Below, piece by piece: positions 23,805 through 46,213 of a stretch of 50,258 bases of DNA. The notes under the pieces were generated by a model. That model was not told the DNA's origin, made no database searches, and saw nothing but the letters and a program-made list of their open reading frames with translations. The stretch comes from Pseudomonadota bacterium. Lineage in GTDB: Bacteria > Pseudomonadota > Gammaproteobacteria > Steroidobacterales > Steroidobacteraceae. The stretch lies in assembly GCA_025356815.1 (NCBI GenBank), contig JANXQL010000036.1:1-50258 (forward strand), given 5' to 3'. The position numbers and the translations under genes were made by a program. Numbering within the stretch: position 1 is the stretch's first letter; every line of letters starts with the position of its first letter.

Positions 23805-26258
23805 TTACTGTCGAATTCTGAGGTTTTTCGGGTCGTACATCGGCACCAGCGACGGTCGCGCCATGACTCGATGATCGGCGAGTTGGATCTCGTAGCGGCC
23901 GGCGAGCACGAACTCGTCACTCGCGCCATCAGGATTGGTGACGAAGCCCATCGCCACGCAGGCACCGAGCGTGTGTCCATACATGCCGGACGTCACGTAG
24001 CCGACTCGCACGCCGTCGCGATAGATCGGTTCGTTGTGGTAGACGACCGGTTCCGGGTCCTCGAGGAGGAACTGCACGAGGCGTCGCTTCGGCACGCCGG
24101 TTGCGCGCTGTGCGGCGAGCTCCTCCATGCCGATGAAGCCGCCGGGCTTCTGCCACGCGCAAGTGAAGCCGAGCCCGGCTTCGAGCGGCGAGTCGTCCGG
24201 CCCGATGTCATGAGACCACTCGCGATAGGCCTTTTCGATGCGTAGCGAGTTCAGTGCGTGGTAGCCGCAGTGCCTGAGTTCAAACGGCTGGCCGGTCGTG
24301 ACGAGCGTGTCGTACACGGGCAGCGCGAACGCAGTCGGTATGTAGAGTTCCCAGCCGAGCTCGCCGACGTAGGTAAGTCGGATCGCCATGACCGTCTGGT
24401 GGCCGAGGCGCACCTCGCGGCATGTCCCGAACGGAAATCCAGCGTGCGAGAAGTCGTCACCCGACATCGACTGCAGCAGCTCCCGCGACCTCGGGCCCTG
24501 GACGTTGAGCATCGCATACGCACCGGAGATGTCGGTGATCACGCAGAATGCCCCATCCGGCACGTGGTTCTGGATCCAGGACTCGACGTGCGTCTGCGTG
24601 AAGGCGGCCGTCAGCACCAGGAATCGATCGACGGCGAGTCGCGTGATGGTGAGGTCCGCCTCGATGCCGCCGCGCGGATTGAGGAACTGCGCATAGACGC
24701 AACGGCCGACCGCGACGTCGACATTGGCCGTCGACAGGCGATTGAGCACGGCCGCGGCATCGCGGCCCTGCACGAGGAGCTTGCTGAAGGAGGACTGCTC
24801 GAAGACGCCGACCGCCTCGCGCACCGCAGCATGCTCGGCCGTGCTGTTCGCCCACCAGTTCTGCCGACCCCAGCTATATTCGTACACTGGAGCCTGGCCC
24901 GGGTTGGCGTACCAGTTCGGTCGCTCCCACCCCGCGCCCTCGCCGAAGCAGGCGCCGGCGGCCGCGAGTCGGTCGTGGAGGATGGATTTCTTGACGCCGC
25001 GCGCTGATTCCCACTGCCGGTACGGCCAGTGGTCCTGGTAGCCGATGCCGAGGGACTCGACGATGCGATCCTGGAGGAACCGGTCGTTGTCCTGCCAGGC
25101 ATGGGCACGCCGCAGGTTCACGGACCAGACGTCCATGGGCGGATGGCCATCGACGATCCACCGTGCCATCACCTGTCCGGCGCCGCCGCCCGAGAGGATG
25201 CCGAGGGAGTTGAAGCCCGCCGCCACGAAGAAGTTCTTGAGGTTCGGCGCCTCGCCCATCAGGTAGTTGTGGTCCGGAGTGAACGACTCCGGGCCGCAGA
25301 ACAGCAGCTTGATGCCTGTCTCGAGCAGGACGGGGACGCGACGCATGGCTTTTTCGATGTGGGGCGTCATCCGATCCCAGTCCGGTGGGATGTCTCCGAA
25401 GCAGAAATCCTCCGGGATTCCATCGAGTGCCCATGGGCTGGCCGCTGTCTCAAACAGCCCCACCATGATCTTCCCGGCTTCCTCGCGGATGTAGGCGGAG
25501 TTGCCTGGGTCGCGGAGGATCGGCAGCAGCGGATGGATTCCCGCGACGGGCTCGGAGATCAGGTAGTAGTGTTCCGCGGCCTGCAGCGGGACGTTCACGC
25601 CGGCCATCTTGCCGACGGCGCGCGCCCACATCCCGGCGCAGTTCACGACGATTTCTGCCCGGATGTCGCCCGAGTCAGTGCTGACTCCGGTGACCGTTCC
25701 GTGCTCCTGCAGCACAGCCGTCACGGCCGTGTGCTCAAAGATGCGCACACCGTTCTGACGCGCGCCCCTTGCAAGCGCCTGAGTGACGTCCGTGGGATTC
25801 ACGCGCGCGTCGTTCGGGAAGTGGAACGCGGCGTGCAGATCGCTGACGTCGGCGAGCGGCCACATCGCCTTGACCTCGTCGCGCCTGATCTCGCGGGCCT
25901 CGACCCCGAACGAGGTAGCCATATGCAGCCCGCGGCGCATCTCAACCGCCTTGTCGGCGGTCATCGCGAGCTGGATGGATCCGCAGCCGATCAGCCCCGT
26001 CGACTGGCCGGTTTCGGCCTCGAGGCTTCGATAGAGGTCCTGGGTGTACTTCGCGAGCTTCGTCTGGGTCTCGGTGTCGCGCAGGGTCGTCAGCAGGCCG
26101 GCCGCGTGCCAGGTCGTACCGGATGTGAGTTGCTTGCGCTCGAGCAGCGCGACGTCTCGGCAGCCGAGCTTCGCCAGGTGGTAGGCGATCGAGCAACCGA
26201 TCACCCCGCCACCGATGATGACGACGCGGGCCTGGGAGGGGAGAGGAGTGGTGCTCAA
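23805..26258 (-). CDS. FAD-dependent dehydrogenase/GcvT fusion, sarcosine or dimethylglycine dehydrogenase-like (copy A)
   Basis: An 817-residue enzyme that should oxidatively demethylate an N-methyl amine and pass the one-carbon unit to tetrahydrofolate. The N-terminal DAO domain has the dinucleotide motif VVIIGGGVIG. SGTTWHAAGLL follows; its His51 is at the site of covalent FAD attachment known for sarcosine and dimethylglycine dehydrogenases. A middle FAO domain is followed by the GcvT folate-binding module from about residue 430 (VFEQSSFSKLLV, then LNVQGPRSRELLQ, ELGWELYIP) and a GcvT C-terminal barrel (GCVAMG-like GACVAMGFV). A TTG start at 26258 gives MSTTPLPSQARVV, matching the other copy; an ATG at 26381 would overlap the preceding gene. 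Confidence 0.87.
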   Translation of the reverse strand: MSTTPLPSQARVVIIGGGVIGCSIAYHLAKLGCRDVALLERKQLTSGTTWHAAGLLTTLRDTETQTKLAKYTQDLYRSLEAETGQSTGLIGCGSIQLAMTADKAVEMRRGLHMATSFGVEAREIRRDEVKAMWPLADVSDLHAAFHFPNDARVNPTDVTQALARGARQNGVRIFEHTAVTAVLQEHGTVTGVSTDSGDIRAEIVVNCAGMWARAVGKMAGVNVPLQAAEHYYLISEPVAGIHPLLPILRDPGNSAYIREEAGKIMVGLFETAASPWALDGIPEDFCFGDIPPDWDRMTPHIEKAMRRVPVLLETGIKLLFCGPESFTPDHNYLMGEAPNLKNFFVAAGFNSLGILSGGGAGQVMARWIVDGHPPMDVWSVNLRRAHAWQDNDRFLQDRIVESLGIGYQDHWPYRQWESARGVKKSILHDRLAAAGACFGEGAGWERPNWYANPGQAPVYEYSWGRQNWWANSTAEHAAVREAVGVFEQSSFSKLLVQGRDAAAVLNRLSTANVDVAVGRCVYAQFLNPRGGIEADLTITRLAVDRFLVLTAAFTQTHVESWIQNHVPDGAFCVITDISGAYAMLNVQGPRSRELLQSMSGDDFSHAGFPFGTCREVRLGHQTVMAIRLTYVGELGWELYIPTAFALPVYDTLVTTGQPFELRHCGYHALNSLRIEKAYREWSHDIGPDDSPLEAGLGFTCAWQKPGGFIGMEELAAQRATGVPKRRLVQFLLEDPEPVVYHNEPIYRDGVRVGYVTSGMYGHTLGACVAMGFVTNPDGASDEFVLAGRYEIQLADHRVMARPSLVPMYDPKNLRIRQ

Positions 26259-26328
26259 CGGGGATACCTGATCTTGGGCGTTCCATGGAAGCGCGCGCCA
26301 CGTGTGGCGGCGCAGAGTGCGGGACGGA

Positions 26329-26778
26329 TCAAAGAAGCGAGACGGTGAAGTCGTAGCTGGTGTGACCGGCATCCCGCGCATGGACGCGCAGAGTGCCGCG
26401 GGCGCCGGCGTACTTGCCCGTGCCCCCCGTGATTGCGAAATCGGCGTCGCCGTCGTCCGGGTACTCCCCGGCCACCTGCAGCTGCCCGGCGGCGAGCGTC
26501 ATCGTCCATGCGCACTGCCAACGCTGGCCAACGACGGTCCGGGCGCAGGAGCCGTTGCTCGTCCCGAGCGACTTGGAGTTCGACGCGTCGTACAGCGGGT
26601 TGGCGAATACCAAAGCGTCGCCGAGTGAATCGCCCTGCGCGCCGAGGTCAATGACATGCTCGTTGGTCGCGCGTTCGACGAGCCGGATCGGTTGCGCCGC
26701 GCGCGCGATCGGTGCTGCGATGCAGGCCGCTACTGCAAGGAGGATCGGGGCTCGGAGCCCTCGCCTGAAGTTGACCAT
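26329..26778 (-). CDS. Secreted allene-oxide-cyclase-like barrel protein
   Basis: A 149-residue protein with a Sec signal ending in PIARA near residue 27. The mature part resembles the allene oxide cyclase/dirigent-type eight-stranded barrel: LGAQGDSLGDALVFANPLYD, a CARTVVGQRWQCAWTM strand pair with two cysteines, and the diagnostic FAITGGTGKYAGARGTL segment. Bacterial members are usually of unknown function and the plant jasmonate reaction should not be assumed. The start is supported by AGAGGGA eight bases upstream. It lies between the AraC regulator and the FAD-GcvT gene, same strand, so it may be cotranscribed with the catabolic enzyme. Confidence 0.75.
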   Translation of the reverse strand: MVNFRRGLRAPILLAVAACIAAPIARAAQPIRLVERATNEHVIDLGAQGDSLGDALVFANPLYDASNSKSLGTSNGSCARTVVGQRWQCAWTMTLAAGQLQVAGEYPDDGDADFAITGGTGKYAGARGTLRVHARDAGHTSYDFTVSLL

Positions 26779-26915: not shown

Positions 26916-27815
26916 TTATGCGCGACATGTATCGCGGTACCGGGCTGGCGTGGTTCCGCACACGCGGCGGAACACGTCCGTGAAGTGACTTTGGGTCGAA
27001 AAGCCGGTCCGCTGGGCGATCTGCGCCAGATCCTGGTCGCCGGTCCGCAGCAGCGCCTTCGCGCGCTCGATGCGGCGGTGGATCACGTACTGGCGCGGGG
27101 ACTGACCGGTCGCCTTCTTGAACGCCCGAGCGAAGCGGAATGGGCTCATCGCCGGGGCCATCGCGATGGTTTCGAGCGACAGGTCCTCATCGAGGTGCGA
27201 CTCGATGTAGTCGGTCGCAGCGCGCAGCTGCCGCGCAGTCATCTCGATGCGGCGCGGCGCCTCGGTCACGCCTGCGGTCGAGTGCCGTCGCAGCAGGTGG
27301 AGCGCGAGCGTCCGCGCGATCGTGTCCCCGAACAGGCGCGTGCCCATGCCCGGGCTCTCGATCTCGGCGAGGATCTGCAGCGAAATGTTGCGGATGACCG
27401 GGTCGACGATGCCAACGCCCTCGATCAGGTTGAAGCGTGGCACTCCGATTTCGGCGGCCACCTCGTCGACGACGCCGGGATCGAGGAAGACCTGCAGTTC
27501 GTCGATGGCCGTGGCACAGTGCCAGACGCTGTCCTGACCCGCGGCCATCAGCATCGCATTGCCGGGTACCGAGTGGCCCCGAACCGCGCGGCCGCTCCAG
27601 CGCGTCTGGATGTCGCAGGGCCGTAGCAGGTGCGCGGAGATGAAGTGGCGTTGCACCGGCGGCAGGTCGAGGTCCCAGCAGCGCACTCCGTCAAAGCGGT
27701 ACGCCTCGAGGTAACGCCAGCCGAGGTTCGCGCTGGAGCAGTTCGGGCCCTGCTGGAACGCACCGAGCCAGCGCGCCTGCATCGGGTCCGCTGCGGTATT
27801 TCCCGACATCGCCAT
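26916..27815 (-). CDS. AraC-family transcriptional regulator
   Basis: A 299-residue regulator. The C-terminal 100 residues form the double helix-turn-helix of AraC/XylS proteins: MSPFRFARAFKKATGQSPRQYV for the first, and LAQIAQRTGFSTQSHFTDVFRR for the second, followed by the conserved GTTPARYR. The N-terminal 190 residues should be a ligand-binding part and are not assignable. The start is one of two close ATGs (27815 or 27809); a GGGGGG tract is better spaced for the second. It heads the minus-strand run AOC-like protein, FAD-GcvT, receptor pseudogene, which are its most likely targets. Confidence 0.9.
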   Translation of the reverse strand: MAMSGNTAADPMQARWLGAFQQGPNCSSANLGWRYLEAYRFDGVRCWDLDLPPVQRHFISAHLLRPCDIQTRWSGRAVRGHSVPGNAMLMAAGQDSVWHCATAIDELQVFLDPGVVDEVAAEIGVPRFNLIEGVGIVDPVIRNISLQILAEIESPGMGTRLFGDTIARTLALHLLRRHSTAGVTEAPRRIEMTARQLRAATDYIESHLDEDLSLETIAMAPAMSPFRFARAFKKATGQSPRQYVIHRRIERAKALLRTGDQDLAQIAQRTGFSTQSHFTDVFRRVCGTTPARYRDTCRA

Positions 27816-31559: not shown

Positions 31560-31577
31560 GCGGAGCGCTAGCTCCGC
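31560..31577 (-). terminator. Hairpin overlapping the FAD-GcvT stop codon
   Basis: GCGGAGC at 31560-31566 pairs with GCTCCGC at 31571-31577 around a four-base loop. The TAG stop codon of the FAD-GcvT gene lies in this loop region. There is no T-run; it may protect the transcript end or attenuate transcription. Confidence 0.4.
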
Positions 31578-34015
31578 ATCCTGGTTCCCGCGGGGTCGTA
31601 GACCGGAGTATCGACAACCGTCGCCGGCCACATCTCCCCGTCGATCTCTATCTCAAGCCGTTGACCGCCGGTCGCATGTGCCGCACCGACATACCCGAGC
31701 GCCATAGACTTACGGATGTGGTGAGCAAACCCGCCCGAGGTCACGTGTCCCACGCAGGCGCCCGCCGACATGATCGCCTCATCTCCCACCACGTCTCGAC
31801 CATCGACGTCGACAATCATCGATACGAGGCGCGTTGTCGGAGCCGCAGTTCGCTCCGCCATCGCCGCTTCTCTTCCGACGAAGTCTCGCTTCCAGTCGAT
31901 GAAGGCATCGAGCCCGCTCTGCGCCGCCGTAAAGTCCGGCCGGTAGTCGAGTGTCCAGACTCCCCAGCTCTTCTCGAGCCGAAGGCTCATCAGGGCGCGC
32001 GCTCCATACGGAGCGAGCCCCAGGTCTTCCCCGTGCGCTTCCAATTGCTCCCAAAGCGCCAGGTGAAACTGCGGCTCGCAGTAGATCTCGTAGCCGAGCT
32101 CGCCGGAAAACGAGATTCGCAAAAGGTAGGCCGGTACGCCGCCCACGAAAGTCCGCCGCACGTCACGGAACTTCAGCGACGACGCCGAAACGTCCTCCCG
32201 GGTTATCCGTGCGAGCAAGTCTCGTGACTTCGGTCCGGAGATCGCAAAGCCATGCAACCGGGCGGAAATGTTCTCGTAGCGGACATCGATGTCCGTCAGG
32301 TGCGACTCGAACCAGCGACGATGCATCTCCTGCGCGGCCCCGGAGCCGAGCAGCAAGTAATGGTCTTCGGCGAGCGCGGTGACCGTGAGGTCCCCGTATA
32401 GCTTGCCGTTGGGCAGCAGCATCGGACTCAACGCTACCCGCCCGGGCTTCGGCAGGTGCCCGGCCAGCAGGCGGCCCAGCAGTTTCCGCGAATCCGGCCC
32501 CTTCAGCTCGTGCTTGCCGAAATTGGCAATCTCGATTGCGCCGACACCGCTCCTGACTGCCCGGACCTCGCGCCCGACGTAGTCATGGCTGCGATTGCGT
32601 GCGAAAGTCGGGTCCTCGTGCGCATCCCCTCGGCCGTCCGCGAACCAGAGCGCGTGCTCGAGCCCGAACGACGTGCCCATGACGGCGCCCCGCTCGACGA
32701 AGCGGTCGTACAGGCTGGTTGTCTTCTGGCGCCGCCCCTTCGGCAGCGTTTCGTTCGGAAAGGTCATCACGAAACGGCGCTCGTAGTTCTCGGCTGATTT
32801 GACGGTGCCCCAATCCGGGGTCGCGAAGCTGCCGAAGCGCGCGATGTCCATGGCCCACACGTCAATCGACGGCGCCCCATCGATCATCCATTCGGCCAGG
32901 CACAGCCCGACCCCGCCGGCCTGACAGAACCCGGCCATCACGCCGACTGCAGCCCAGTAGTTGGTCATGCCCGGCACGGGGCCAATCATGGGGTTCCCGT
33001 CCGGCCCGAATGTGAACGGCCCGTTCACGACCGTCTTGATCCCAGCGTCCGCCAGCGCCGGAATGCGCTGGAAGGCGAGTTCCAGTCGATCGGCAATCCG
33101 GCCGAGGTCCGGCGGTAGTAGCTCGTGCCCGAAGTCCGCCGGCGTGCCATCTACCCGCCACGGCGTCGAGCGAGGCTCGTAGGTACCCAGCAGCATGCCG
33201 TTGCGCTCCTGGCGGAAATAGATGTTCGCCTCGTAGTCGATGCCGGCCGGAAGGCGCTCGCCAGACTTCATCCGCTCGGCGATCGTCGGGATCGCCTCCG
33301 TGATCAGGTAGTGGTGCTCCATCGGCTGCACCGGCAGGTGAACCCCCGCCATCCGGCCTGCCTCGCGGGCCCAGAGGCCCGCCGCGTTGACGACGATTTC
33401 CGCGTTGATGGTGCCGCGTGGCGTGGCGACGTCCCAGCTGCCGTCGCTACGCTGGCGCGTCGAGATCACGGGCGTGTGCGTGTGGTACTTGGCCCCGTGC
33501 ACGCGCGCTGCCTTCGCGTACGCGTAGACGACGCCGGACGGGTCGATGTCTCCATCGAGCGGGTCCCACAACGCCGCGAGGTAGTGGCTGGGGTCGATCA
33601 GCGGATGCCGGCGCGCGACTTCCTCGACGCTGATGAATTCCTGATCCAGGCCCATCGTGCGCGCCTTGGAGCGCTCGCGCTTGAGGTAATCGAACCAGAC
33701 CTGATTCGAGGCGAGGTAGAATCCGCCGGTCGCATGCATGCCGATGTCATGGCCGGAGGTTTCCTCGATCTCCTTGTAGAGCTTGATCGTGTAGCTCTGC
33801 ATTCGACTGATGTTGGGATCGGAACTGATCGTGTGGATCTGGCCCGCCGCGTGCCAGCTCGAGCCGCTGGTGAGTTCAGAGCGTTCGAGCAGCACCGAGT
33901 CCTTCCAGCCGAACTTGGCCAGATGGAAGAGGATCGAGCAGCCGACGACACCGCCGCCTATGATGACGACCTTGGCGTGACTCTGCAGGGCCGGGAGGGT
34001 GGGTTCTGTGTTCAT
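31568..34015 (-). CDS. FAD-dependent dehydrogenase/GcvT fusion, sarcosine or dimethylglycine dehydrogenase-like (copy B)
   Basis: An 815-residue paralogue of the enzyme at 23805. The N-terminal DAO domain has VVIIGGGVVG and SGSSWHAAGQI, whose His55 should carry covalent FAD. A middle FAO domain follows, then the GcvT folate module (IEIANFGKHELKGPDSR, LHGFAISGPKSRDLL, GELGYEIYCEP) and a C-terminal barrel (SMALGYVGAAH). It should oxidise an N-methylated glycine or related amine and load methylene-tetrahydrofolate. The start at 34015 gives MNTEPTLPALQ with no strong ribosome binding site. Only 19 bases separate it from the upstream MttB-superfamily gene, so the two are very likely cotranscribed and may act in sequence. 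Confidence 0.9.
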   Translation of the reverse strand: MNTEPTLPALQSHAKVVIIGGGVVGCSILFHLAKFGWKDSVLLERSELTSGSSWHAAGQIHTISSDPNISRMQSYTIKLYKEIEETSGHDIGMHATGGFYLASNQVWFDYLKRERSKARTMGLDQEFISVEEVARRHPLIDPSHYLAALWDPLDGDIDPSGVVYAYAKAARVHGAKYHTHTPVISTRQRSDGSWDVATPRGTINAEIVVNAAGLWAREAGRMAGVHLPVQPMEHHYLITEAIPTIAERMKSGERLPAGIDYEANIYFRQERNGMLLGTYEPRSTPWRVDGTPADFGHELLPPDLGRIADRLELAFQRIPALADAGIKTVVNGPFTFGPDGNPMIGPVPGMTNYWAAVGVMAGFCQAGGVGLCLAEWMIDGAPSIDVWAMDIARFGSFATPDWGTVKSAENYERRFVMTFPNETLPKGRRQKTTSLYDRFVERGAVMGTSFGLEHALWFADGRGDAHEDPTFARNRSHDYVGREVRAVRSGVGAIEIANFGKHELKGPDSRKLLGRLLAGHLPKPGRVALSPMLLPNGKLYGDLTVTALAEDHYLLLGSGAAQEMHRRWFESHLTDIDVRYENISARLHGFAISGPKSRDLLARITREDVSASSLKFRDVRRTFVGGVPAYLLRISFSGELGYEIYCEPQFHLALWEQLEAHGEDLGLAPYGARALMSLRLEKSWGVWTLDYRPDFTAAQSGLDAFIDWKRDFVGREAAMAERTAAPTTRLVSMIVDVDGRDVVGDEAIMSAGACVGHVTSGGFAHHIRKSMALGYVGAAHATGGQRLEIEIDGEMWPATVVDTPVYDPAGTRMRS

Positions 34016-34034
34016 GGCGGGCGTCGTCGGGGTG

Positions 34035-35555
34035 TCAGTACCAGGCGTCGGGCAGAGCCGCCTTGCGACGGGCTACGTAGTCCTCGAGCGACTCGAGTGT
34101 TGCGGCATCGATCGGCGGTGGTTCGTACTCGTCGAGCAGCCGGTTCCAGCGCTCGTACGCCCGTCGCGCGGCGTCCTTTGAGCCCTGCTCCTCCCACTGC
34201 TCGACGCTGTTCGAATCCGATAGCTGCGGCTCGTAAAACGCCGTCTTGTAGTGCGATAGGGTGTGCGCGGAGCCGAGGAAGTGGCCGCCCGGCTCGACGT
34301 CAGCGTAGGCGTCACGGCCTACCGCATCGTCGTCGGTCTCGAACCCGCGCAGCATGACCTCGTACGCGCCGAGCCGGTCGGCATCCAGCACCAGCTTCTC
34401 GTAGCCGGTCGACAATCCGCCCTCCAGCCAGCCCGCTGCATGCAGTACGAAGTTCGCGCCACCCAGTACGGTTGAGAGCATCGAGTCGGCGCTCTCCGCC
34501 GCCGCCTGCGCGTCAGGCACCTTGGAGGCCGTCAGCGCGCCACCGCAGCGCAGCGGCAGGTTCAGGCGCCGCGCGAGCTGCCCAATCGCCAGGTTCGACA
34601 TCAACGGCTCTGGCATGCCGAAGGTCGGTGCGCCCGAGCGCAGATTCATCGACGAGAGGAAGTTACCGAGGATGAATGGCGCGCCGGGACGGACGAGCTG
34701 GGTGTAGGCGCCTACGATCATCGCCTCAGCGAGCGCCTGGGCGATCGCGGCCGCGGTCGTGACCGGACCCATCGCGCCGGACAGGATGAACGGCACGACG
34801 ATGAGCCCTTGGCCGGCGCCGCAGTACACGGCGGCCGCGTCCGTCACGACCTTGTCGACCAGGAGCGGCGAGTTAGTGTTGACGTTCGCCATGATCACGC
34901 ACTGGCTGTCGAAGACATCGCCTCCGTGCAACAGCCGCGCCATCGCGACGCTGTCTTCGGCGCGGCTCTTCTCTGTGATCGCGCCCAGGTGCGGCTTGTC
35001 GGTCAGCGTCATGTGCGCGAACAACATGTCGAGATGGCGCTTCGAGACCGGAATGTCGCAGGGCTCGCATGTCACGAAGCCGGAGTGATGTAGGGGCTTG
35101 AGCAGGTGGGTGAGCTTCACCAGCCGCCGAAAATCCTCAAGCGTGCCGTAACGTCGCCCGCCTTCCAGGTCGCGGACAAATGGCGAGCCGTATACCGGCG
35201 CAAACACTTGGTGCCGACCGCCGATCCGTACCGAGCGCGCCGGATTGCGCGCGGTCTGCGTGAAATCCGCTGGCGCACTCGCGAGCAGCGCCTCGATCAG
35301 CGCTCGCGGCGTTCGCACGCGGTGGTCGGTGACCTCGGCGCCAGCGGTACGCCAACGCTGCAGGGCATCGGGTGCCTCGCGGAACTCGATCCCCACCGTT
35401 TCGAGCAAACGAAATGCCTGGTGTTCGATCCGTTCCAACGCCTCGTCGTCTAGAAACGAGTAATACGGAATTCGGCGTGTCACATAAGCTGGACTGGCTT
35501 CCACACTGGGCGTCGCGCCGCGGGGCATGCGCCCCCGAGAACCCGGCCTGTTCAT
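34035..35555 (-). CDS. MttB-superfamily (trimethylamine/glycine-betaine-type) methyltransferase, non-pyrrolysine
   Basis: A 506-residue member of the trimethylamine methyltransferase superfamily. Marks include DDEALERIEHQAFRLLETVGIEF near the N-terminus, GGRRYGTLEDFRRLVKL, the SGAMGPVTTAAAIAQALAEA helix and a glycine-rich TFGMPEPL segment. The frame is complete without an internal TAG, so it is of the non-pyrrolysine MtgB-like kind that demethylates quaternary amines such as glycine betaine. Family members normally need a corrinoid partner; none is seen here. The ATG at 35555 has a weak ribosome binding site; an ATG at 35528 behind GGGGGC is an alternative. It is divergent from a LysR gene and upstream of FAD-GcvT copy B. 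Confidence 0.87.
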   Translation of the reverse strand: MNRPGSRGRMPRGATPSVEASPAYVTRRIPYYSFLDDEALERIEHQAFRLLETVGIEFREAPDALQRWRTAGAEVTDHRVRTPRALIEALLASAPADFTQTARNPARSVRIGGRHQVFAPVYGSPFVRDLEGGRRYGTLEDFRRLVKLTHLLKPLHHSGFVTCEPCDIPVSKRHLDMLFAHMTLTDKPHLGAITEKSRAEDSVAMARLLHGGDVFDSQCVIMANVNTNSPLLVDKVVTDAAAVYCGAGQGLIVVPFILSGAMGPVTTAAAIAQALAEAMIVGAYTQLVRPGAPFILGNFLSSMNLRSGAPTFGMPEPLMSNLAIGQLARRLNLPLRCGGALTASKVPDAQAAAESADSMLSTVLGGANFVLHAAGWLEGGLSTGYEKLVLDADRLGAYEVMLRGFETDDDAVGRDAYADVEPGGHFLGSAHTLSHYKTAFYEPQLSDSNSVEQWEEQGSKDAARRAYERWNRLLDEYEPPPIDAATLESLEDYVARRKAALPDAWY

Positions 35556-35612
35556 GTTTTAGCACTGCAAATTGTTGAACTTACCGCCGAGTATAGAATC
35601 CGGCCGATCGGT

Positions 35613-35649
35613 GACTTGTCTTTAAAACTTGGGATAAGTATAAGTCTAT
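35613..35649. promoter_or_regulatory. Candidate LysR operator in the divergent promoter
   Basis: The 97-base gap between the divergent methyltransferase and LysR genes contains ACTT at 35614 and 35627 and the inverse AAGT at 35636 and 35642. Near the LysR start lies an ATA-N10-TAT (35634-35649). Such interrupted dyads fit LysR T-N11-A sites, and autoregulation with divergent control is the usual LysR plan. The exact site is inference. Confidence 0.4.
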
Positions 35650-35652
35650 GTT

Positions 35653-36573
35653 ATGAGAGAGTTAATACGTCATGTCGGTTCCACACACAATCTCGTCGTC
35701 TTCGAGGCGGCGGCGCGACTTGCCTCGTTTTCCAAAGCAGCCGAGGAACTGGGACTGACCCAGCCGGCCGTCAGCCAGGCCGTGCGGCGCCTGGAGTCCG
35801 CCATCGGAACCCGGCTATTTCAGCGGAGTCACCGTGCGATTGCCCTGACCGACTCCGGAGATCGTCTGTACGCGGATGTCGTCGATGGCTTCTCCCGTAT
35901 CCTCGCCACCGCACGCCAGATCCGACGCTCCGCGCGCAGAGAGCACGCGACCCTGCTCGTCTCCACGGCGTTTGCCACCTGGTGGATGGTGCCGCGACTG
36001 GCGGAATTCCGCACGCGTCATCCGCAGGTGGACCTGCGCCTGGAGACTCGGGACAAGGACGTCGATATTGCAGCTGAGGCGACGACGTTAGCGGTCCGCC
36101 GCGGCACCGGCGAGTGGCCGGGGTATCAGAGTGCTCTCATCACGCCGGAGCGTATCACGGCAGTTGCAAGCCCGAAGCTCCTGGCCGCTCATCCGCGACT
36201 GTCTGACGTAGGCGCGCTGCTGTCGTTGCCGCTGATCCATTTGGACGAGCCGCATCGGTATCGTCCAGGCTGGACCGAATACTTCAATCACTTTGGGGGC
36301 AAGTTCCGCGATGATGGCGACGGACTGCGGCTGAACGACTATGCGTTGGTTCTGCAGGCCGCGATGGCGGGCGAGGGCGTCGCGATCGGGTGGCAACATA
36401 TCTGCGAGCGCCCGATCGAGCAAGGGCTGCTCGCGCAGGCCGGGCCGGGCACCTGGGATACGGGTCAAGGGTTTTATCTGGTGTGGTCGGGAACGACTCC
36501 ACTCGCCGAAAACGCACAGCTGGTGCGCGACTGGATCGCCGCGACCCCTGCGCTCTCAGCGACAGACCCGTAG
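35653..36573 (+). CDS. LysR-family transcriptional regulator, GcvA-like
   Basis: A 306-residue regulator. The N-terminal winged helix-turn-helix is clear: FEAAARLASFSKAAEELGLTQPAVSQAVRRLE, then GTRLFQRSHRAIALTDSGDRL. The C-terminal 210 residues are the periplasmic-binding-protein-like effector domain. The family's closest characterised members (GcvA) control glycine cleavage, which would suit the divergent MttB/FAD-GcvT genes that yield one-carbon units, but the effector is not known. The ATG at 35653 has a poor ribosome binding site, consistent with low expression. It converges with norD at 26 bases, so the nor cluster ends here. Confidence 0.92.
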   Translation: MRELIRHVGSTHNLVVFEAAARLASFSKAAEELGLTQPAVSQAVRRLESAIGTRLFQRSHRAIALTDSGDRLYADVVDGFSRILATARQIRRSARREHATLLVSTAFATWWMVPRLAEFRTRHPQVDLRLETRDKDVDIAAEATTLAVRRGTGEWPGYQSALITPERITAVASPKLLAAHPRLSDVGALLSLPLIHLDEPHRYRPGWTEYFNHFGGKFRDDGDGLRLNDYALVLQAAMAGEGVAIGWQHICERPIEQGLLAQAGPGTWDTGQGFYLVWSGTTPLAENAQLVRDWIAATPALSATDP

Positions 36574-36599: not shown

Positions 36600-38435
36600 C
36601 TACCGGGTCATCGCGGCATAAAGGCGAAGCAGTTGCTGCGGGAGTTCCTGTGGGCGTCGAATGATCGCGTACCCCCCAGCGCCGAACACATGCGGTAGAT
36701 ACGAGGGGCTCTCGCGATCGATCGTCACGCAGAATGGGCGCAGACCGTGCCGCTTGGCGTCCATGACGGCACTTCGAGAGTCCTCGATGCCGTATCGTCC
36801 CTCGTAGAGATCCAGATCGTTCGGCTTGCCATCCGACAGGATCAGCAGCAGCCGCCGACTCGCGGCCTGCTTTTCCAGCAGGTTGCTCGCATGGCGTATC
36901 GCGGCGCCGAGTCGGGTGTAGTAGCCCGGCTTGATCGCAAGCACGCGGCCTCGCTCTGCTGCGGCGAACGGCGCGTCGAAATCCTTCAGCCGTGAAAAGC
37001 GAACGTTGTTGCGGCGCACAGACGAGAATCCGCAAAGTGCGAACCGGTCGCCAGTCGCGGTCAGGGCGGTACCGAACAGCAGCAGCGATTCGCGCACCAC
37101 GTCGATCACCCGCGCTTCGTTCGACACCCACGCATCGGTCGACAGTGAAAGATCGGCGAGCACCAGGCACGCGAGGTCCCGCTCGCGACGCTCCTGCGAC
37201 TGGAAAACGTTGTCGACGGCCTGCATCCCGCACGCCCGATCCGTCGTTGCACGCACGACTGCGTCGAGGTCTATCTCGGCGCCGTCGGCTTGCGCCTTGA
37301 CCCAGCGCCTTGCTGGGCGGAGCGCCTCAAACTGCTGATATAAACGGCGTGCGGTCCGAGTCAGGTGGTTGGGCAGCGCGGCCGGCGTCGCGCCGCATGG
37401 CGACATTTCAATCAGCCGGACGTGATCCTCGAGCAGACGACTCTTGCGATAGTCCCACTCGGGCAACGAAATACCGGCGCCGAGCACGATGTCGTCCTCG
37501 GCGGCCGATGGCAGATCGAGGTCAAACCGCACCCGCGAGCGAGCGCGCTGACCATCGGCCGAGATGGCTAGCTGGTCGAGGTCGCGGGCCGCGACATCCG
37601 TGCGCGCATCAGGATCGTCGTCCTCCGAGCGGTTCACGCGCGCGTATTCGCCCATCGATAGCAGGCTCTCGGCCCGAAACGGCATCAGCATGCCGTTGCG
37701 CTGTCGCTCGTATTCCACTCGCGTGGCCGCATGTGCAATCGAGGTTGCGTCGTTCTTGCTGGTGTGGCCCGCATTTTCTCCAATGGTGCTTCCTGACGCG
37801 AAGGGAGGTGCCCCCGCGGGAGCGCCCTCCATCGTCAGCCACAGTGGCACTGGCTGCGGCGTCACCGCCGGCGACGGCAGAGCGTCGACGCTGCCCGGGT
37901 CCTGCAGAGCCTGACGTACAGCACGCTCTGTCCCGCGCTCTGGCACCGGGAGCCGTTCCTCGGGCAAGCGCTGCTCGAGATGGGCGGCCACGAGTCGCCG
38001 ATAGCGGGCATTGAGCCCAGGCCAGGTCGACAGCGCCAGGCGCGTTGCCTGCTGGTTGCGGCAAAACTCATCGGGCGTTCCAGCGACGCCAGGAGAGACC
38101 GCTGCCAGCGCCGCCAGCCAAAAGTACAGCTCCCGGTTCAGTTGCGGGTCGGCGAACGTGGAGATCTGGGCCGGCAGTCGCAGGGTCGCGACGCCGAGCG
38201 ACGCCTGCGGCACCTTCTCCTCGGTACCTGCGATGCGAGCGAGCAGGCGTCGGCGCGCGCCGTGGCGCCGTTCTGGCGCCTGCGCCATGCGCAGGCCCGG
38301 GTCACCTCCGAAGGCGCGGAAGGTGATCCCGAGCGTCCGCTCGATGTCGCGCAGGTGGATCGTGGCCGCCTGATGCTCTACCCGAGCTAATCGACTGATC
38401 GTGCGATGCCACAACTTGCCGATCGACTCTTCCAT
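36600..38435 (-). CDS. norD: Nitric oxide reductase activation protein NorD
   Basis: A 611-residue cytosolic protein required, with NorQ, for assembly or metal insertion of nitric oxide reductase. The C-terminal von Willebrand A domain carries the MIDAS motif DLSLS at 428-432 and a later LSDGKPNDLD. The N-terminal 400 residues are the long helical region typical of NorD, here with an acidic stretch (EDDDPDAR) near 271. It lies four bases after the polyferredoxin gene and ends the nor run. Confidence 0.9.
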   Translation of the reverse strand: MEESIGKLWHRTISRLARVEHQAATIHLRDIERTLGITFRAFGGDPGLRMAQAPERRHGARRRLLARIAGTEEKVPQASLGVATLRLPAQISTFADPQLNRELYFWLAALAAVSPGVAGTPDEFCRNQQATRLALSTWPGLNARYRRLVAAHLEQRLPEERLPVPERGTERAVRQALQDPGSVDALPSPAVTPQPVPLWLTMEGAPAGAPPFASGSTIGENAGHTSKNDATSIAHAATRVEYERQRNGMLMPFRAESLLSMGEYARVNRSEDDDPDARTDVAARDLDQLAISADGQRARSRVRFDLDLPSAAEDDIVLGAGISLPEWDYRKSRLLEDHVRLIEMSPCGATPAALPNHLTRTARRLYQQFEALRPARRWVKAQADGAEIDLDAVVRATTDRACGMQAVDNVFQSQERRERDLACLVLADLSLSTDAWVSNEARVIDVVRESLLLFGTALTATGDRFALCGFSSVRRNNVRFSRLKDFDAPFAAAERGRVLAIKPGYYTRLGAAIRHASNLLEKQAASRRLLLILSDGKPNDLDLYEGRYGIEDSRSAVMDAKRHGLRPFCVTIDRESPSYLPHVFGAGGYAIIRRPQELPQQLLRLYAAMTR

Positions 38436-38439
38436 CGCG

Positions 38440-39387
38440 TCAGCGCCAGTCCGATCGTACCGACGAGGTGAAGCCGGCTTCGCCGGCTCGCGCCGCGTCG
38501 CTGTCGACCCATCTCAGAAGAGTCCCAGGCGGCCGCCCCGATTGCGCGGTCTGGCAGGCCTCCAGGCACTTGCCGCACTGTGTGCACGCGAACATGTGCC
38601 GCTTCAGTGCGCGGGGCTTCAGGCGCATCGGGCAGGCCAATTCGCAGGCGAACGCCCGTGCCGGCACGCAGACCGAGCAGGCGGAGGCTCGCTTCCTGGA
38701 AAAGCCGACCACCATGGCGTTGGGATTTGCGATCCATGCCAGGCTCTGGAACATGCCGACCGCGCAGGCATACCGGCAGAAGAGGTGTCGACCGAGGAAG
38801 AACTCCAGTGACAGCACGATTGTCGCGGCGCCGAGGAACAACGCCTCGGAGCGTCTGAGGACGCCATGCCACAAGTGGCCGTAGACTTCGGCCGGCGGCA
38901 GCAGGTAGGACAACAGGACTACGGCCCAGGTAAACGCGAAGCCGATCGTCAGGAGGATCAGCACCAGCCACCAGCGGGCATCCTGGCGGCGCGGCGATGT
39001 GCCGTCCATGCTATGCACAGGTGTGTCCCAGAAGCTGAAACGCCCGCAGGCGCGTCGCATCAACTCGTTCAGGGTCTCGACGACCGAGAAGTGTGGGCAG
39101 AGCCAGCCGCAGTACAGGCGCCCCCACAGCCATGCAACGCCGAGCAGCATCCCGGCGATCGTCAGCAACGGCAAGAACAGCCGTAACACGACCTGCAGTG
39201 CGGCCTGGCCCGCGCTGATTTTCCCGGCGCTGAATTCATCGAGTCCCAGGCGCCACGGGAAGGTCAGGATCCACGCATGCCCCACCGTGAGGTCGTAGCG
39301 AAACAAGTCGAACCAAGGCGCTAAGACGAAAAGCACGAAGAAGCCGGTCTGCCACACACGCCGACGGCGCTGGGTATGGTTCCTCAT
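38440..39387 (-). CDS. Membrane polyferredoxin (NapH/NosR/CcoG-like) in the nor cluster
   Basis: A 315-residue inner membrane protein with about five hydrophobic spans (FFVLFVLAPWFDLF, LRLFLPLLTIAGMLLGVAWLW, WLVLILLTIGFAFTWAVVLLSYL, LFLGAATIVLSLEFFLG). Membrane-edge CGWLCP at 93-97 and CRYAC at 204-208 resemble NapH/NosR. A cytoplasmic tail holds ACSVC with ACELACP (237-252) and CTQCGKCLEAC (268-278), enough for two 4Fe-4S clusters. It could feed electrons to, or help mature, the nitric oxide reductase. A GTG at 39459 overlapping the previous stop in a GTGA is an alternative start that would couple the two genes and add 24 residues. Confidence 0.82.
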   Translation of the reverse strand: MRNHTQRRRRVWQTGFFVLFVLAPWFDLFRYDLTVGHAWILTFPWRLGLDEFSAGKISAGQAALQVVLRLFLPLLTIAGMLLGVAWLWGRLYCGWLCPHFSVVETLNELMRRACGRFSFWDTPVHSMDGTSPRRQDARWWLVLILLTIGFAFTWAVVLLSYLLPPAEVYGHLWHGVLRRSEALFLGAATIVLSLEFFLGRHLFCRYACAVGMFQSLAWIANPNAMVVGFSRKRASACSVCVPARAFACELACPMRLKPRALKRHMFACTQCGKCLEACQTAQSGRPPGTLLRWVDSDAARAGEAGFTSSVRSDWR

Positions 39388-39455
39388 GCCACGCGCCGCC
39401 GCGTCGCCGGGCAACGAGCAGGCGGTTCCCGCAACCTCCTTGCTTGCGCACACCG

Positions 39456-39854
39456 TCACGGCTGGAGCCTTGGCCCGATCACCGGGAAGCGGAAGCATTG
39501 CCCGGCCATGGCTCTGGCGAGTCCGGCGACACCCACGAGCACCAACGTCGAATGAATGCAGGTGAAATAGAGGATCGTCGCAACCCAGGCAGCGCCGCTG
39601 CCGTGACCGTGCACCGGGCCCAAAAGCGCGATGACCGCGCCGGTCACCAGCACGATCAGTACGCCGCCGTAGAGGCTGACCCAGAATGCCTGCCGCAGGT
39701 GGTTTCGCGCTAGCACGCCGCTGCTGGCGCCGTGCCGAAACCACAACACCGCGAGGATCACGAACGCGACGCCGGGCATCAGAGTGAGGTTTGCAAGGTA
39801 GAGGGTCTCGGCGATTACCGCGAGCGTTCGGTCCCGTGCGTCGCTGTCACTCAC
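39456..39854 (-). CDS. Small multi-span membrane protein in the nor cluster
   Basis: A 132-residue protein with about three transmembrane helices (LANLTLMPGVAFVILAVLWF, FWVSLYGGVLIVLVTGAVIALLG, VATILYFTCIHSTLVLVGVAGLA). The ARNHLRQAFWVSLYGG segment between the first two recalls the HxRQA pattern of DUF4870-type membrane proteins. Function is unknown; it is not NorE, which is longer and COX3-like. It starts at GTG with GGGAGGT nine bases upstream and lies seven bases after norQ. Its TGA overlaps a possible GTG start of the polyferredoxin gene. Confidence 0.72.
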   Translation of the reverse strand: MSDSDARDRTLAVIAETLYLANLTLMPGVAFVILAVLWFRHGASSGVLARNHLRQAFWVSLYGGVLIVLVTGAVIALLGPVHGHGSGAAWVATILYFTCIHSTLVLVGVAGLARAMAGQCFRFPVIGPRLQP

Positions 39855-39861
39855 GCTCGTG

Positions 39862-40653
39862 CTACCTCCCGAACGTGGCGTGGACGATCTCCATCAGCGC
39901 CGTGGTCGTCTCGAGGTCGTCCGTCAGGCCCTCTACGATGCATGTCCGGCATGCGCTGATCGGCTCCAGCCCATCCTTGATCAGCTTGGCGGCGTAGACC
40001 AGCAGCCGGGTGCTGGCGGCCTCCTCGAGATCCTGATCCTTCAGGCTGCGGTAGGAGCGGCCTATCGCAACGAGGCGGCGCGCGAGCTCGGCGTCGGCGC
40101 CGGCCTCGTTGCACAGAATTGACTCCTCAAGCGCGGCAGTTGGAAAATCGAAGCGCAGCGAAACGAAGCGCTGACGGGTAGACGGTTTGAGCCCCTTCAA
40201 GAGGTTCTGATAGCCGGGGTTGTATGATACGACCAGCATGAACGACGGCGGGCAGTAGACAGCCTCGCCGGTCCGCTCGATCAGCAGAACCCGCCGGTCG
40301 TCCGCGAGTGGGTGCAGCACGACGGTAGTGTCTTTGCGCGCCTCGACGATCTCGTCGAGGTAGCAGACGCCACCCGCGCGGACGGCGCGGGTCAGCGGAC
40401 CGTCGCACCACCAGGTAGCGCCGTCCCGGATCAGATGCCGGCCGACCAGATCGGCGGCCGTCAGATCGTCGTGGCAGGCTACCGTATAGAGCGGCAGCCG
40501 CAGGCGCGCGGCCATGTGGGCGACGAATCGGGTCTTGCCGCAGCCCGTCGGTCCCTTTATCAGTAGCGGCAGCCTGTTCTTCCAGGCGTGCTCAAAGAGT
40601 TCGACCTCGTCGGCTGTCGGTGCGTAGTAGGGCGGCGCCACCTGCATGTCCAT
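39862..40653 (-). CDS. norQ: Nitric oxide reductase activation ATPase NorQ
   Basis: A 263-residue MoxR/CbbQ-type AAA+ ATPase. Walker A is GPTGCGKT at 34-41, Walker B is CYLDE at 97-101, and a sensor asparagine follows in VVSYNPGYQ. With NorD it forms the chaperone pair that activates the catalytic subunit, thought to help insert the non-haem iron. It lies 120 bases after norB on the same strand. The ATG has AGGTGA just upstream; a second in-frame ATG lies two codons on. Confidence 0.92.
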   Translation of the reverse strand: MDMQVAPPYYAPTADEVELFEHAWKNRLPLLIKGPTGCGKTRFVAHMAARLRLPLYTVACHDDLTAADLVGRHLIRDGATWWCDGPLTRAVRAGGVCYLDEIVEARKDTTVVLHPLADDRRVLLIERTGEAVYCPPSFMLVVSYNPGYQNLLKGLKPSTRQRFVSLRFDFPTAALEESILCNEAGADAELARRLVAIGRSYRSLKDQDLEEAASTRLLVYAAKLIKDGLEPISACRTCIVEGLTDDLETTTALMEIVHATFGR

Positions 40654-40773
40654 CTTTCACCTGCACTCAATCGGGCCTGCCCGGGCAGCGGGTCGGCACC
40701 TGCCGGCCCTGGGACCGTCGTCCATTCTCCTCTGGCGCTGCATGCGTGTGCCGCGCCAGGGGTGCGAACCTGC

Positions 40774-42637
<1,864 letters not shown>

Positions 42638-43376: not shown

Positions 43377-44180
43377 TTAGCCGGGCGAGACGACCGGCTC
43401 GCCGCTCCCGCGACGAGATAGCCAGGTTCCGAACACGATCAGAAGGACCGAGGCGACGATAACGAGCGTGGACACGGCGTTCACCTCAGGCGTCGCCTCC
43501 CGGCGAAGCAGCGACCAAAGAGTCATCGGCAGCGTGTTTTGGCGTCCGGTTAGCAGGTAGGTCACGGCAATTTCGTCGAACGAGATTGAGAATGAGATCA
43601 ACATCGCACCGATGAGCGCGGGCAGAACCCCCGGCAGCGTGACCTTCTGGAAGACCTCCCACTCGTTCGCGCCCATGGTGCGCGCCGCTTCCTCGACGCT
43701 ATGACCCATCTGGCGCAGCCTTGCCGTGACTTCCGTGATGGTCACGCACATCAGTCCGGTACCCTGGCCGAGCATGATCGTGTACAGCGATAGCCTGAGG
43801 TGCATCGCCATGTAGAACAGCAGCAGTGCGACGCCCGTGATGACGCCCGGCAGCACGATCGGCAGCAGCACGAGCCGCCCGAACCAGCGCTTGCCGGGGA
43901 ACTCGAAGCGATCAAGCGCGATGGCAGCCGGCAGGCCGAACAGCGTGCTGAGACCGACGACACCGAGCGCGACGTACACGCTGTTCCACACTGATTCCAG
44001 CAGCCGGTCATCCGCCAGCAGCATCGAATACCAGCGCCACGTGAAGCCGAGAAACGGCAGTCCGGTGAAGTCGCTGTCGTTGAACGAGAACACTGCCATG
44101 ACGAGCAGCGGCGCATACAGAAACGCAATTACCGACCAGCCCAGTGACCAGGCAATGCGCCGACTACCAAGATCCCGCAT
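43377..44180 (-). CDS. ABC transporter permease, PotC-like
   Basis: A 267-residue inner membrane permease with about six helices. The EAA loop that docks on the ATPase is visible as EEAARTMGANEWEVFQKVTLPGVLPAL. The segment ISFDEIAVTYLLTG is typical of PotC/YdcV permeases of the polyamine/opine/phosphonate group. It is the last gene of a binding protein-ATPase-PotB-PotC run and lies nine bases after the PotB-like gene. Polyamine import is the family's best-known role, but related systems carry other amines. Confidence 0.9.
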   Translation of the reverse strand: MRDLGSRRIAWSLGWSVIAFLYAPLLVMAVFSFNDSDFTGLPFLGFTWRWYSMLLADDRLLESVWNSVYVALGVVGLSTLFGLPAAIALDRFEFPGKRWFGRLVLLPIVLPGVITGVALLLFYMAMHLRLSLYTIMLGQGTGLMCVTITEVTARLRQMGHSVEEAARTMGANEWEVFQKVTLPGVLPALIGAMLISFSISFDEIAVTYLLTGRQNTLPMTLWSLLRREATPEVNAVSTLVIVASVLLIVFGTWLSRRGSGEPVVSPG

Positions 44181-44189
44181 GGTGAATTC

Positions 44190-45068
44190 CTAGTACCGCA
44201 CCTGGGCGCGGTGTTCCAGATACTGGGCCACTGAAATTAGCGCGGTTCCGATGCCGATCACGACGATGCCGATGGACGCGGCCATCGGCCAGTCGAAGGC
44301 GACGCCGAGGAGGTTGATGACGACGTTGCTGATCATCAGGGCGTCGGGCCCGCCGACAAGCGCAGGGGCGATGAAGTCGCCGGTGGCCAGCGCAAAGGTG
44401 ATGATCCCGCCGGCCACCACGCCCGGCAAGCTCAACGGAATCACGAGCCGCGTCAGCGTCTCGAAGGTGGTCGCTCCGAGGTTGCTCGAGGCTTCGAGCA
44501 TCGACGTAGGGATCCGATCCAGCTGCGCGTAGATCGAAAGGATCGAGAAGGGGGTGAAGATGTAGACGAGCGTCAGTACGACGCTGAACTGATTGTACAG
44601 AAACAGCGTCATAGGCTCGCTGATCACGTGCAGGTTCAAGAGCACTGCGTTCAGGATGCCGCTTGTGCCGAGGATGGTCTTCCAGGCATAGGCCTTGACC
44701 AAATACGCCGCCCACCACGGCACGATTACCAGCAGATAGATGATGAATTTCGAGCGCGCCGAGCGCGTGTGGAAGGCGAGGCAGAACGCCACCGGGTAGG
44801 CAAGAATCGTCGCGCCGATAGCCGTCAGAGCGCCGATCCGCGCCGACTTGATCAGCACCGACAGGTACGGTTCTGTCTGAAACACCCTGGCGAGGTTCAC
44901 CAGCGAGAAGCCTGGCTTGAACGTCATGTAGTCGGTCGAACCGAGGCTGTAATAGAAGAGCATGCCGTAGGGAACGACCATGAACACGGCGAACCACAGC
45001 AGCGGTGGGGCCAGCCAGAGCAGCAGCTGTCGCCGGTCCCGACCCATCGCCAGCGTGGCGTCGCTCAC
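44190..45068 (-). CDS. ABC transporter permease, PotB-like
   Basis: A 292-residue permease with about six helices and the EAA loop LEASSNLGATTFETLTRLVIPLSLPGV. The N-terminal helix LLLWLAPPLLWFAVFMVVPYGMLFYYSLG and the SIYAQLDRIPTSMLEAS stretch are typical of PotB/YdcU proteins. It starts at GTG and overlaps the ATPase gene stop by four bases (GTGA), so translation is coupled. Pairs with the PotC-like gene to form the membrane channel. Confidence 0.9.
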   Translation of the reverse strand: MSDATLAMGRDRRQLLLWLAPPLLWFAVFMVVPYGMLFYYSLGSTDYMTFKPGFSLVNLARVFQTEPYLSVLIKSARIGALTAIGATILAYPVAFCLAFHTRSARSKFIIYLLVIVPWWAAYLVKAYAWKTILGTSGILNAVLLNLHVISEPMTLFLYNQFSVVLTLVYIFTPFSILSIYAQLDRIPTSMLEASSNLGATTFETLTRLVIPLSLPGVVAGGIITFALATGDFIAPALVGGPDALMISNVVINLLGVAFDWPMAASIGIVVIGIGTALISVAQYLEHRAQVRY

Positions 45069-46174
45069 GGAGCGGATCTCTGCGGTGGACTTTGGCCGAT
45101 GATCCGCACATGCCGGGGATCCGCGCTGACCGACAGATCGTCGCCGAGCTGAAACCCACCTTGATCCCCGGTATCCAGTGCCGAGAGGCGGGTGTTGCTG
45201 CCGTGGACACAGAGTTCGTAGCGCACCTTCTCACCGAGGAAGAGCCTTTCGGTGACCCGCGCGACGAAGCCGTCGGTGCCCGGCGCCGCCGGCGACAGGC
45301 GCAACTGTTCCGCCCGGAGCATCACGGTGACCGAGTCACCGACAGCGGCGAGGGCCGTATTGTCGCGGGCCTCAACCCGGGCGTTGCCTGCGAGTCGAAC
45401 CACGGCGACGCCATCGCCCTTGGACTCGACGATGCCCTCGAGTACGTTAGCGGCGCCGACGAACCGGGCGACTTCCGCGCTGTTCGGCCGGAAGTAGATG
45501 TCGTTGGGCGGTGCGATCTGTAGCAGGCAGCCGTCCTGCAGTACCGCGACTCGGTCGCTGAGCCCCATGGCCTCTTCCTGATCATGGGTAACGTAGATAA
45601 AAGTCTTGCGCAACTCCCGGTGCAGTCGCTTCAGCTCCAGCTGCATGGACTTGCGCATGCTCGCATCGAGCGAGCCGAGCGGCTCATCGAAGAGCACCAC
45701 GGGCGGATCGGTGACCAGCGCGCGCGCGAGTGACACGCGCTGGCGCTGTCCACCGGACAGCTGGTGCGGCAACTTCTGAGCGTGGCCCGAAAGCATTACG
45801 GTCTCAAGGTAGCGCCCGACGCGGGTCTTGATCTCCTCGTGGGTTACGCGGCCGCGGTTGATCTTGAGCCGCAGGCCGAATGCGACGTTGTTCCAGACGG
45901 TGAGATTCGGGAATAGCGCGAAATCCTGGAACACCATTCGCATGTCGCGCTGCGCGGCCGGCACATGGGTGATGTCCTGGCCGCGAAAGAGTACCGAACC
46001 CGCGGTCGGCGTTTCCAGCCCGGCGATCATGCGCAGCGTAGTCGTCTTGCCGCTGCCACTCGCACCGAGCAACGACAGGAATTCTCCCTCTGTGACGGAG
46101 AACGAGACGTCCCTGACCGCGAGGGGGCCGCCATAGTGCTTCTGCAGTTGTCGTGCTTCAATAATCGCAGTCAT
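45065..46174 (-). CDS. ABC transporter ATPase, PotA-like
   Basis: A 369-residue ATP-binding subunit that powers import. Walker A is GASGSGKTT at 37-45, the Q-loop Gln is 83, the signature LSGGQ is at 139-143, Walker B is VVLFDEP at 159-165, and the switch His is 197 in YVTHDQEEA. The C-terminal 110 residues are a TOBE regulatory domain as in PotA/UgpC-type subunits. It follows the binding-protein gene by 39 bases and overlaps the PotB-like gene by four. Confidence 0.93.
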   Translation of the reverse strand: MTAIIEARQLQKHYGGPLAVRDVSFSVTEGEFLSLLGASGSGKTTTLRMIAGLETPTAGSVLFRGQDITHVPAAQRDMRMVFQDFALFPNLTVWNNVAFGLRLKINRGRVTHEEIKTRVGRYLETVMLSGHAQKLPHQLSGGQRQRVSLARALVTDPPVVLFDEPLGSLDASMRKSMQLELKRLHRELRKTFIYVTHDQEEAMGLSDRVAVLQDGCLLQIAPPNDIYFRPNSAEVARFVGAANVLEGIVESKGDGVAVVRLAGNARVEARDNTALAAVGDSVTVMLRAEQLRLSPAAPGTDGFVARVTERLFLGEKVRYELCVHGSNTRLSALDTGDQGGFQLGDDLSVSADPRHVRIIGQSPPQRSAP

Positions 46175-46213
46175 TTAGGATGCTCGTGTAAATAGGCGCG
46201 CAGAAAAGCGTGC

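Follow-up and report, generated by a model that had tools for sequence, protein, structure and literature searches.

Corrinoid-dependent demethylation by proteins of the MttB family is known from Ruegeria pomeroyi, where MtgC and MtgD are required for glycine betaine demethylation as well as for methionine synthesis (Mausz et al. 2025, PMC12478193; statements from this source refer throughout to the sections of it used here). The mtg genes of R. pomeroyi are not co-located, up to seven PF06253 genes are reported per one mtgC and mtgD, and two MttB-family proteins are raised on glycine betaine (PMC12478193). The same sections describe MtpB, MtcB, MtyB and others of Eubacterium as MttB homologues of differing substrate specificity with one corrinoid protein (PMC12478193). 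A split methionine synthase as well as RamA-like and DUF1638 helpers were described by Price et al. 2018 (PMC5764234, likewise in the sections used). Here we compare with these systems a gene pair located on a contig of 50,258 bp from a gammaproteobacterium of the Steroidobacteraceae (JANXQL010000036.1, assembly GCA_025356815.1). The whole contig is referred to as the window. The pair codes for an MttB-superfamily methyltransferase, here named window MttB, and for a fusion of flavin adenine dinucleotide (FAD)-dependent and GcvT-type domains (FAD-GcvT; Table 1).

Judged from sequence comparisons, we give a probability of roughly 80% to reading the pair as an operon for two-step N-demethylation which uses a shared corrinoid hub encoded in trans. 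In the first step MttB would demethylate a quaternary amine, namely a betaine, and load the methyl group onto Co(I) of MtgC, the stand-alone corrinoid protein. From MtgC the methyl group would be passed to tetrahydrofolate by MtgD and oxidized by MetF2, while a RACo/RamA-like protein would re-reduce the corrinoid. In the second step the tertiary amine would be oxidized by the FAD domain of the fusion, whose GcvT domain would hand the one-carbon unit to tetrahydrofolate as in dimethylglycine dehydrogenase (DMGDH). Flavin oxidation requires a lone pair that a quaternary nitrogen lacks, and on grounds of general chemistry this would explain why the corrinoid step comes before the flavin step. The gene pair is probably a new branch of the recently described pathway and not a B12-free enzyme.

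The preliminary description of the window had reported a complete, non-pyrrolysine MttB-like gene 19 bases before an FAD-GcvT fusion, and the ORFs, their Pfam domains and the spacer (34016-34034) confirmed this arrangement. Window MttB matched PF06253 over its full length (709.5 bits, cut-off 25; profile positions 5-500 of 500) and remained far below the cut-off of the pyrrolysine MttB model TIGR02369 (244.8, cut-off 525). Its ORF contains no in-frame TAG and has a Leu in the pyrrolysine column, which places the protein in the non-pyrrolysine branch of the MttB superfamily. Among solved structures, 4YYC and 2QNE/9YCE come closest, the latter being MtgB of Desulfitobacterium hafniense, a non-pyrrolysine glycine betaine methyltransferase (as cited in PMC12478193).

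All four domains of the FAD-GcvT fusion (DAO, FAO_M, GCV_T and GCV_T_C) exceeded their Pfam cut-offs. Domain order and an end-to-end alignment assign the fusion to the DMGDH family. Its closest solved relatives are 4P9S and 5L46, and DMGDH reached 578.6 bits compared to 295.3 bits for dimethylglycine oxidase. The motif SSWHAAG is found at residue 52 and includes His55, which as the histidine of WHAAG is the predicted site of covalent FAD attachment. The proposed coupling of MttB to a folate-linked demethylase is supported, and successive demethylation appears as its likely logic.

Two options had been left for the methyl acceptor of the first step, a partner encoded elsewhere or an MttB working without corrinoid, since no corrinoid gene had been seen in the 50 kb. 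The absence was reproduced, as all four B12-binding matches of the genome are located on contigs other than that of the window; it is explained by a view limited to 50 kb. Searches of the whole genome support a partner encoded elsewhere: MtgC, MtgD and an activator of the RamA/RACo type are present in the same genome, a draft of 4.0 Mb in 207 contigs with a completeness of 95% and a contamination estimate of 1.15%. One of the four matches is the stand-alone corrinoid protein MtgC, which combines the B12-binding domain PF02310 with the cap PF02607 and is a fragment cut by a contig end. The remaining three are a mutase fused to MeaB, a MerR-type regulator and a protein of 134 amino acids on contig C92, the domain make-up having been read for the first two. 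The genome carries a single gene for the RamA-like activator RACo, a pterin-binding gene (MtgD) in two contig pieces and, besides, a FolP-like gene. PF06253 picked out nine genes above the cut-off, of which one is truncated at a contig end, and a tenth match scored below it.

Downstream of the corrinoid protein, genes for DUF1638, 'Virulence_fact', DUF5981 and MTHFR are followed by the start of the pterin-binding gene. The end of this gene opens the order on contig C156, where RACo, two other genes and, on the opposite strand, an MttB gene follow. The contigs C184, C181 and C156 overlap exactly at their ends, by 141 and 121 bases, respectively. In four relatives (G008, G014, G010 and G029) the gene order of the hub is contiguous, with minor variation in the stretch from RACo to MttB; MtgD of these contiguous hubs was Pfam-checked in G029 only. 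The two genes between RACo and the hub MttB (C156, 2404-4501) belong to the fatty-acid-hydroxylase and PhyH families. Both are present in G008 and G010, PhyH alone is present in G014 and neither was found in G029.

On the level of domain matches the genome thus contains the components of an MtgBCD-type system, namely a pterin-binding MtgD, RamA/RACo, DUF1638 and MetF2. It also encodes two stand-alone PF02574 proteins. Within the limits of a draft, and hence provisionally, a fused MetH was not found and none of the PF00809 matches falls in a MetH-like protein, as in a split methionine synthase (MtgCDE). A dedicated corrinoid protein and activator in a co-regulated locus elsewhere had been named beforehand as a finding that would refute the preliminary reading. 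To a large extent this is what the genome shows, as both proteins are encoded elsewhere, but their locus looks shared rather than dedicated to window MttB.

The distribution of these genes was followed in 60 genomes (the genome of the window and 59 relatives), of which 28 carried an MttB homologue and 32 none. Stand-alone MtgC, counted at an identity of at least 64%, was present in 27 of the 28 genomes with MttB (at least 80% identity; the match in G019 is partial) and in 2 of the 32 without it (G032 with 64% and G053 with 80%), while G058, also without MttB, has an MtgC of 48%. For RACo the numbers were again 27/28 and 2/32 (G044 and G058). Fisher's test gave p = 1.6e-13 for either table, with kinship ignored. 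G012 carried MttB and MtgC and had no RACo match; this genome is less than 90% complete. Within the same genus MtgC was found at 93-99% identity in 13 of 14 genomes.

A second set consisted of genomes that carry a member of the MttB clade of the window, based on the best 80 of 257 confirmed loci; locus L125 was left out of the genome search, which leaves 79. A stand-alone corrinoid protein was found in 75 of them, in 74 at an identity of at least 66%. The two sets overlap, as G060-G063 share match coordinates with G014, G009, G029 and G001.

The gene neighbourhoods of the closest MttB homologues, the comparison of which had been recommended, were analyzed for the same 80 loci. For each family of neighbours one or two proteins were scored; LysR and FAD-GcvT genes were counted by clustering (thresholds of 35% identity and 60% of the length of the longer protein), by which diverged neighbours are missed. 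In 49 of 71 loci a downstream FAD-GcvT gene shares the strand of MttB, in 29 of them at a distance of up to 400 bases. This denominator comprises loci with at least 3 kb downstream or with a match, truncated loci with a match entering both numbers. The pairing of MttB and FAD-GcvT exceeds chance. A divergent LysR gene was found in 40 of 76 loci. Within the own genus, G009 carried MttB and FAD-GcvT followed after 17 bases by a GST-family gene, in G014 the contig breaks off within FAD-GcvT, and G001 carried MttB alone.

In the genome of the window itself, three further MttB genes, on contigs C132, C67 and C199, have an FAD-GcvT gene adjoining or within 2 kb, so that several of the nine paralogues show this pairing.

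The relation of window MttB to the hub was assessed in a quick tree of 106 proteins, in which support is given by SH-aLRT only and several branches are long. Window MttB fell into a clade of 88 entries (SH-aLRT 100). The hub paralogue on C156, 4YYC and the hub MttB of Paracoccus aminovorans, whose annotated hub is located on a plasmid, formed a hub-linked clade of 9 entries (SH-aLRT 91), and 2QNE branched outside both. In this tree window MttB did not group with the hub-linked, MtgB-like clade, and it is a paralogue outside of it. The two clades have 163 fixed columns in common and differ at 43 fixed positions. MttB (7XCL) and MtgB (2QNE) share 80 residues with at least 85% of the hub clade, and of these window MttB retains 62 and differs at 18.

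Several observations weigh against a two-step operon served by the hub. One genome with MttB (G007, 87% complete) has no MtgC match, RACo being present. No match was found either in four of the 79 clade genomes, all of them metagenome-assembled genomes (G087, G097, G114 and G118, with loci L126, L136, L153 and L157); the best match of G079 has an identity of 46% and that of G101 contains a stop codon. L100 and L101, which are among the five loci closest in sequence (84-86% identity), have no FAD-GcvT next to MttB. Furthermore, MtgC would be needed for methionine synthesis anyway, and its presence is no proof of its use by window MttB. With 43 fixed differences between the clades, partner recognition could differ too.

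Among the alternatives, the one that survives best regards window MttB as an isozyme of MtgB and the FAD-GcvT fusion as a DMGDH, which together would convert glycine betaine to sarcosine. It is in agreement with the closeness of the fusion to DMGDH, with 4YYC and MtgB (2QNE) as nearest solved structures and with the two MttB-family proteins raised on glycine betaine in the sections on R. pomeroyi cited above (PMC12478193). Genomic context adds to this. A plasmid of Paracoccus sp. TOH carries the homologous operon (L178, 11941-18003), whose MttB shares 80% identity with window MttB, next to an operon for glycine cleavage and serine ammonia-lyase, and a clade member of Rhodobacter sp. CZR27 (57%) lies near glycine betaine/proline ABC-transporter genes. 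However, the hub paralogue on C156 is closer to MtgB than window MttB (453 versus 336 bits), both the tree and the 43 fixed differences set the two clades apart, and several operon genes of the window clade, described below, have no obvious role in glycine betaine use. Glycine betaine is a possible substrate of window MttB; for the isozyme reading as a whole we see a serious chance, though short of even odds.

The occurrence of so similar an operon on a plasmid of Paracoccus suggests transfer between alpha- and gammaproteobacteria. In G040 a pair 64-66% identical to that of the window is found near a BCCT-family transporter gene, and together with the ABC-transporter genes of strain CZR27 this context points to quaternary amines, which the window clade would accordingly be expected to bind. 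A homologue of Azoarcus adjoining choline-to-betaine genes belongs to the hub clade and bears on that clade only.

The additional operon genes, which can lie between MttB and FAD-GcvT, are of three kinds. Glycine C-acetyltransferase (Kbl) and threonine 3-dehydrogenase (Tdh) are encoded between MttB and FAD-GcvT in 9 of 80 loci; one example of each was scored and both exceeded the NCBIfam cut-offs. These loci sometimes also carry a CysK-like gene (below the NCBIfam cut-offs) and a PEP-mutase-family gene. An enolase-superfamily gene is part of the operon in 8 of 80 loci, in one of which (L171) no FAD-GcvT was found, and occurs as well in the operons of Paracoccus sp. TOH and of a Mesorhizobium plasmid. 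An OYE-like flavoenzyme gene is present in 5 of 80. Kbl-Tdh required 3 changes on the tree versus a mean of 8.8 after shuffling, the enolase gene 7 versus 9.7. Both cassettes are clustered on the tree, yet they have been gained and lost.

Being a paralogue that does not belong to the hub-linked, MtgB-like clade, window MttB may act on a betaine other than glycine betaine, and the separate clade together with the Kbl-Tdh or enolase cassettes argues for such a difference. More specifically, and rather speculatively, the clade could be corrinoid-dependent and specific for another betaine, perhaps that of a beta-hydroxy amino acid such as threonine betaine (N,N,N-trimethylthreonine); we consider this proposal rather unlikely. 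If it is true, the Kbl-Tdh or enolase genes would fit the catabolism of such a betaine as carbon-skeleton modules that are swapped on a fixed demethylation core. No characterised member of the window clade was found. Among the open-access papers listed, judged mostly by title and opening of the abstract, none apart from the general hub paper (PMC12478193) dealt with the clade or with the Kbl-Tdh and enolase cassettes of its operons, and threonine betaine, serine betaine and trimethylthreonine gave no matches there, homoserine betaine alone giving some.

A further lead, proline betaine or hydroxyproline betaine as substrate via an HpbD-like epimerase, was set aside, as no enolase-family match carried this label (0/15 and 0/20 among the matches listed with E up to 1e-20 for Paracoccus sp. 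TOH and L160, respectively). The best matches of both enolase-family proteins are named isomerase, dehydratase or cycloisomerase, and the protein of L160 reached 100.1 with the NCBIfam model of cis-3-hydroxy-L-proline dehydratase (cut-off 500).

That window MttB is corrinoid-free, for instance by direct methyl transfer to folate or to another acceptor, is very improbable. The missing corrinoid gene on the 50-kb contig, the 18 changed residues and the four clade genomes without a match could be read in its favour; they are outweighed by the hub in the genome, the 62 residues kept and the occurrence of MttB together with MtgC with few exceptions (27/28 and 75/79), on which grounds this option of the preliminary description is abandoned.

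We give even less credence to the idea that the corrinoid contigs contaminate the draft and the organism has no hub, since a 207-contig assembly and the differences in GC content (overall 0.647 for the window contig versus 0.671 and 0.681 for C181 and C156; at codon position 3, 0.66-0.87 for picked window ORFs versus 0.85-0.94 for hub genes on C181 and C156) are outweighed by the low contamination estimate, the MtgC of 93-99% identity in 13 of 14 same-genus genomes, the hubs of G008, G010 and G014 on long contigs with further MttB genes, and the contiguous hub order in relatives combined with exact contig overlaps, which makes contamination unlikely.

Table 1. Coordinates of the gene pair and of the adjoining regulator in the window
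Feature	Position	Strand	Basis	Remark
MttB-superfamily (PF06253) methyltransferase, non-pyrrolysine, 506 amino acids	34035..35555	-	ORF and Pfam	first gene of the pair
FAD-GcvT fusion (DAO-FAO_M-GCV_T-GCV_T_C), 815 amino acids	31568..34015	-	ORF and Pfam	second gene of the pair
LysR-family regulator	35653..36573	+	Pfam; NCBIfam below cut-off	divergent from MttB
Intergenic region between the divergent LysR and MttB genes	35556..35652		inferred	presumed site of both promoters

The top NCBIfam matches of the LysR gene were TIGR03418 (choline-sulfate regulator) and GcvA. A second FAD-GcvT fusion of 858 amino acids with the domains DAO, FAO_M, GCV_T and GCV_T_C is encoded in the window at 23805-26381 (minus strand), with an AraC-type gene upstream at 26916-27815; a homologue of this fusion (52%) lies 3.7 kb away from the MttB gene of C184. 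The region 36600-42637 (minus strand) comprises a VWA-domain protein (36600-38435), a COX1-family subunit (40774-42147) and small ORFs around both. This cluster looks like one for nitric oxide reductase (Nor), domain scores being at hand for the VWA and COX1 proteins alone. At 43377-48839 (minus strand) genes of a polyamine-type ABC transporter (solute-binding protein, ATPase and permease) adjoin an aminotransferase gene. Outside the window, on a Leisingera plasmid (L182, 8959-11606), an MttB-family gene is directly followed by an annotated aminomethyltransferase-family gene, which at 1092 bases is too short for an added FAD domain.

A trans-encoded hub would remove the apparent paradox of an MttB enzyme without corrinoid. 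It would extend the aerobic B12-dependent demethylation hub, a recent discovery, to a gammaproteobacterial genus represented by draft genomes, the one studied here having nine methyltransferase genes for its single corrinoid protein. The clade combines conserved with varied operons, and its betaine substrate can be tested in culturable Leisingera, Ruegeria and Roseovarius.

Compared with known proteins, the FAD-GcvT fusion resembles mitochondrial DMGDH (4P9S, 5L46) in end-to-end alignment, domain order and WHAAG motif; it differs in being bacterial and in adjoining an MttB gene, and its predicted substrate is a tertiary amine. Window MttB shares with MtgB of D. hafniense the family, a near full-length alignment and the Leu at the pyrrolysine column. 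However, the match amounts to 336 bits only, and D. hafniense is an anaerobe whose corrinoid protein is called phylogenetically distinct in the sections cited (PMC12478193). The systems of Eubacterium are similar in that several MttB homologues are served by one corrinoid protein, but they belong to anaerobes and are likened here by description and not by sequence.

The closest correspondence is with MtgBCD of R. pomeroyi. Both have an MttB-family protein, a stand-alone MtgC, MtgD, MetF2, a RamA-like protein and DUF1638; as far as the sections used describe it, both also have MttB genes apart from mtgC and several MttB per MtgC, and no classical MetH was found in the genome of the window. In contrast to R. 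pomeroyi, this genome is a gammaproteobacterial draft with nine PF06253 genes, and window MttB belongs to a clade other than the hub-linked one. The MtgBCD hub system as such is already known from R. pomeroyi, and the organism studied here fits that scheme.

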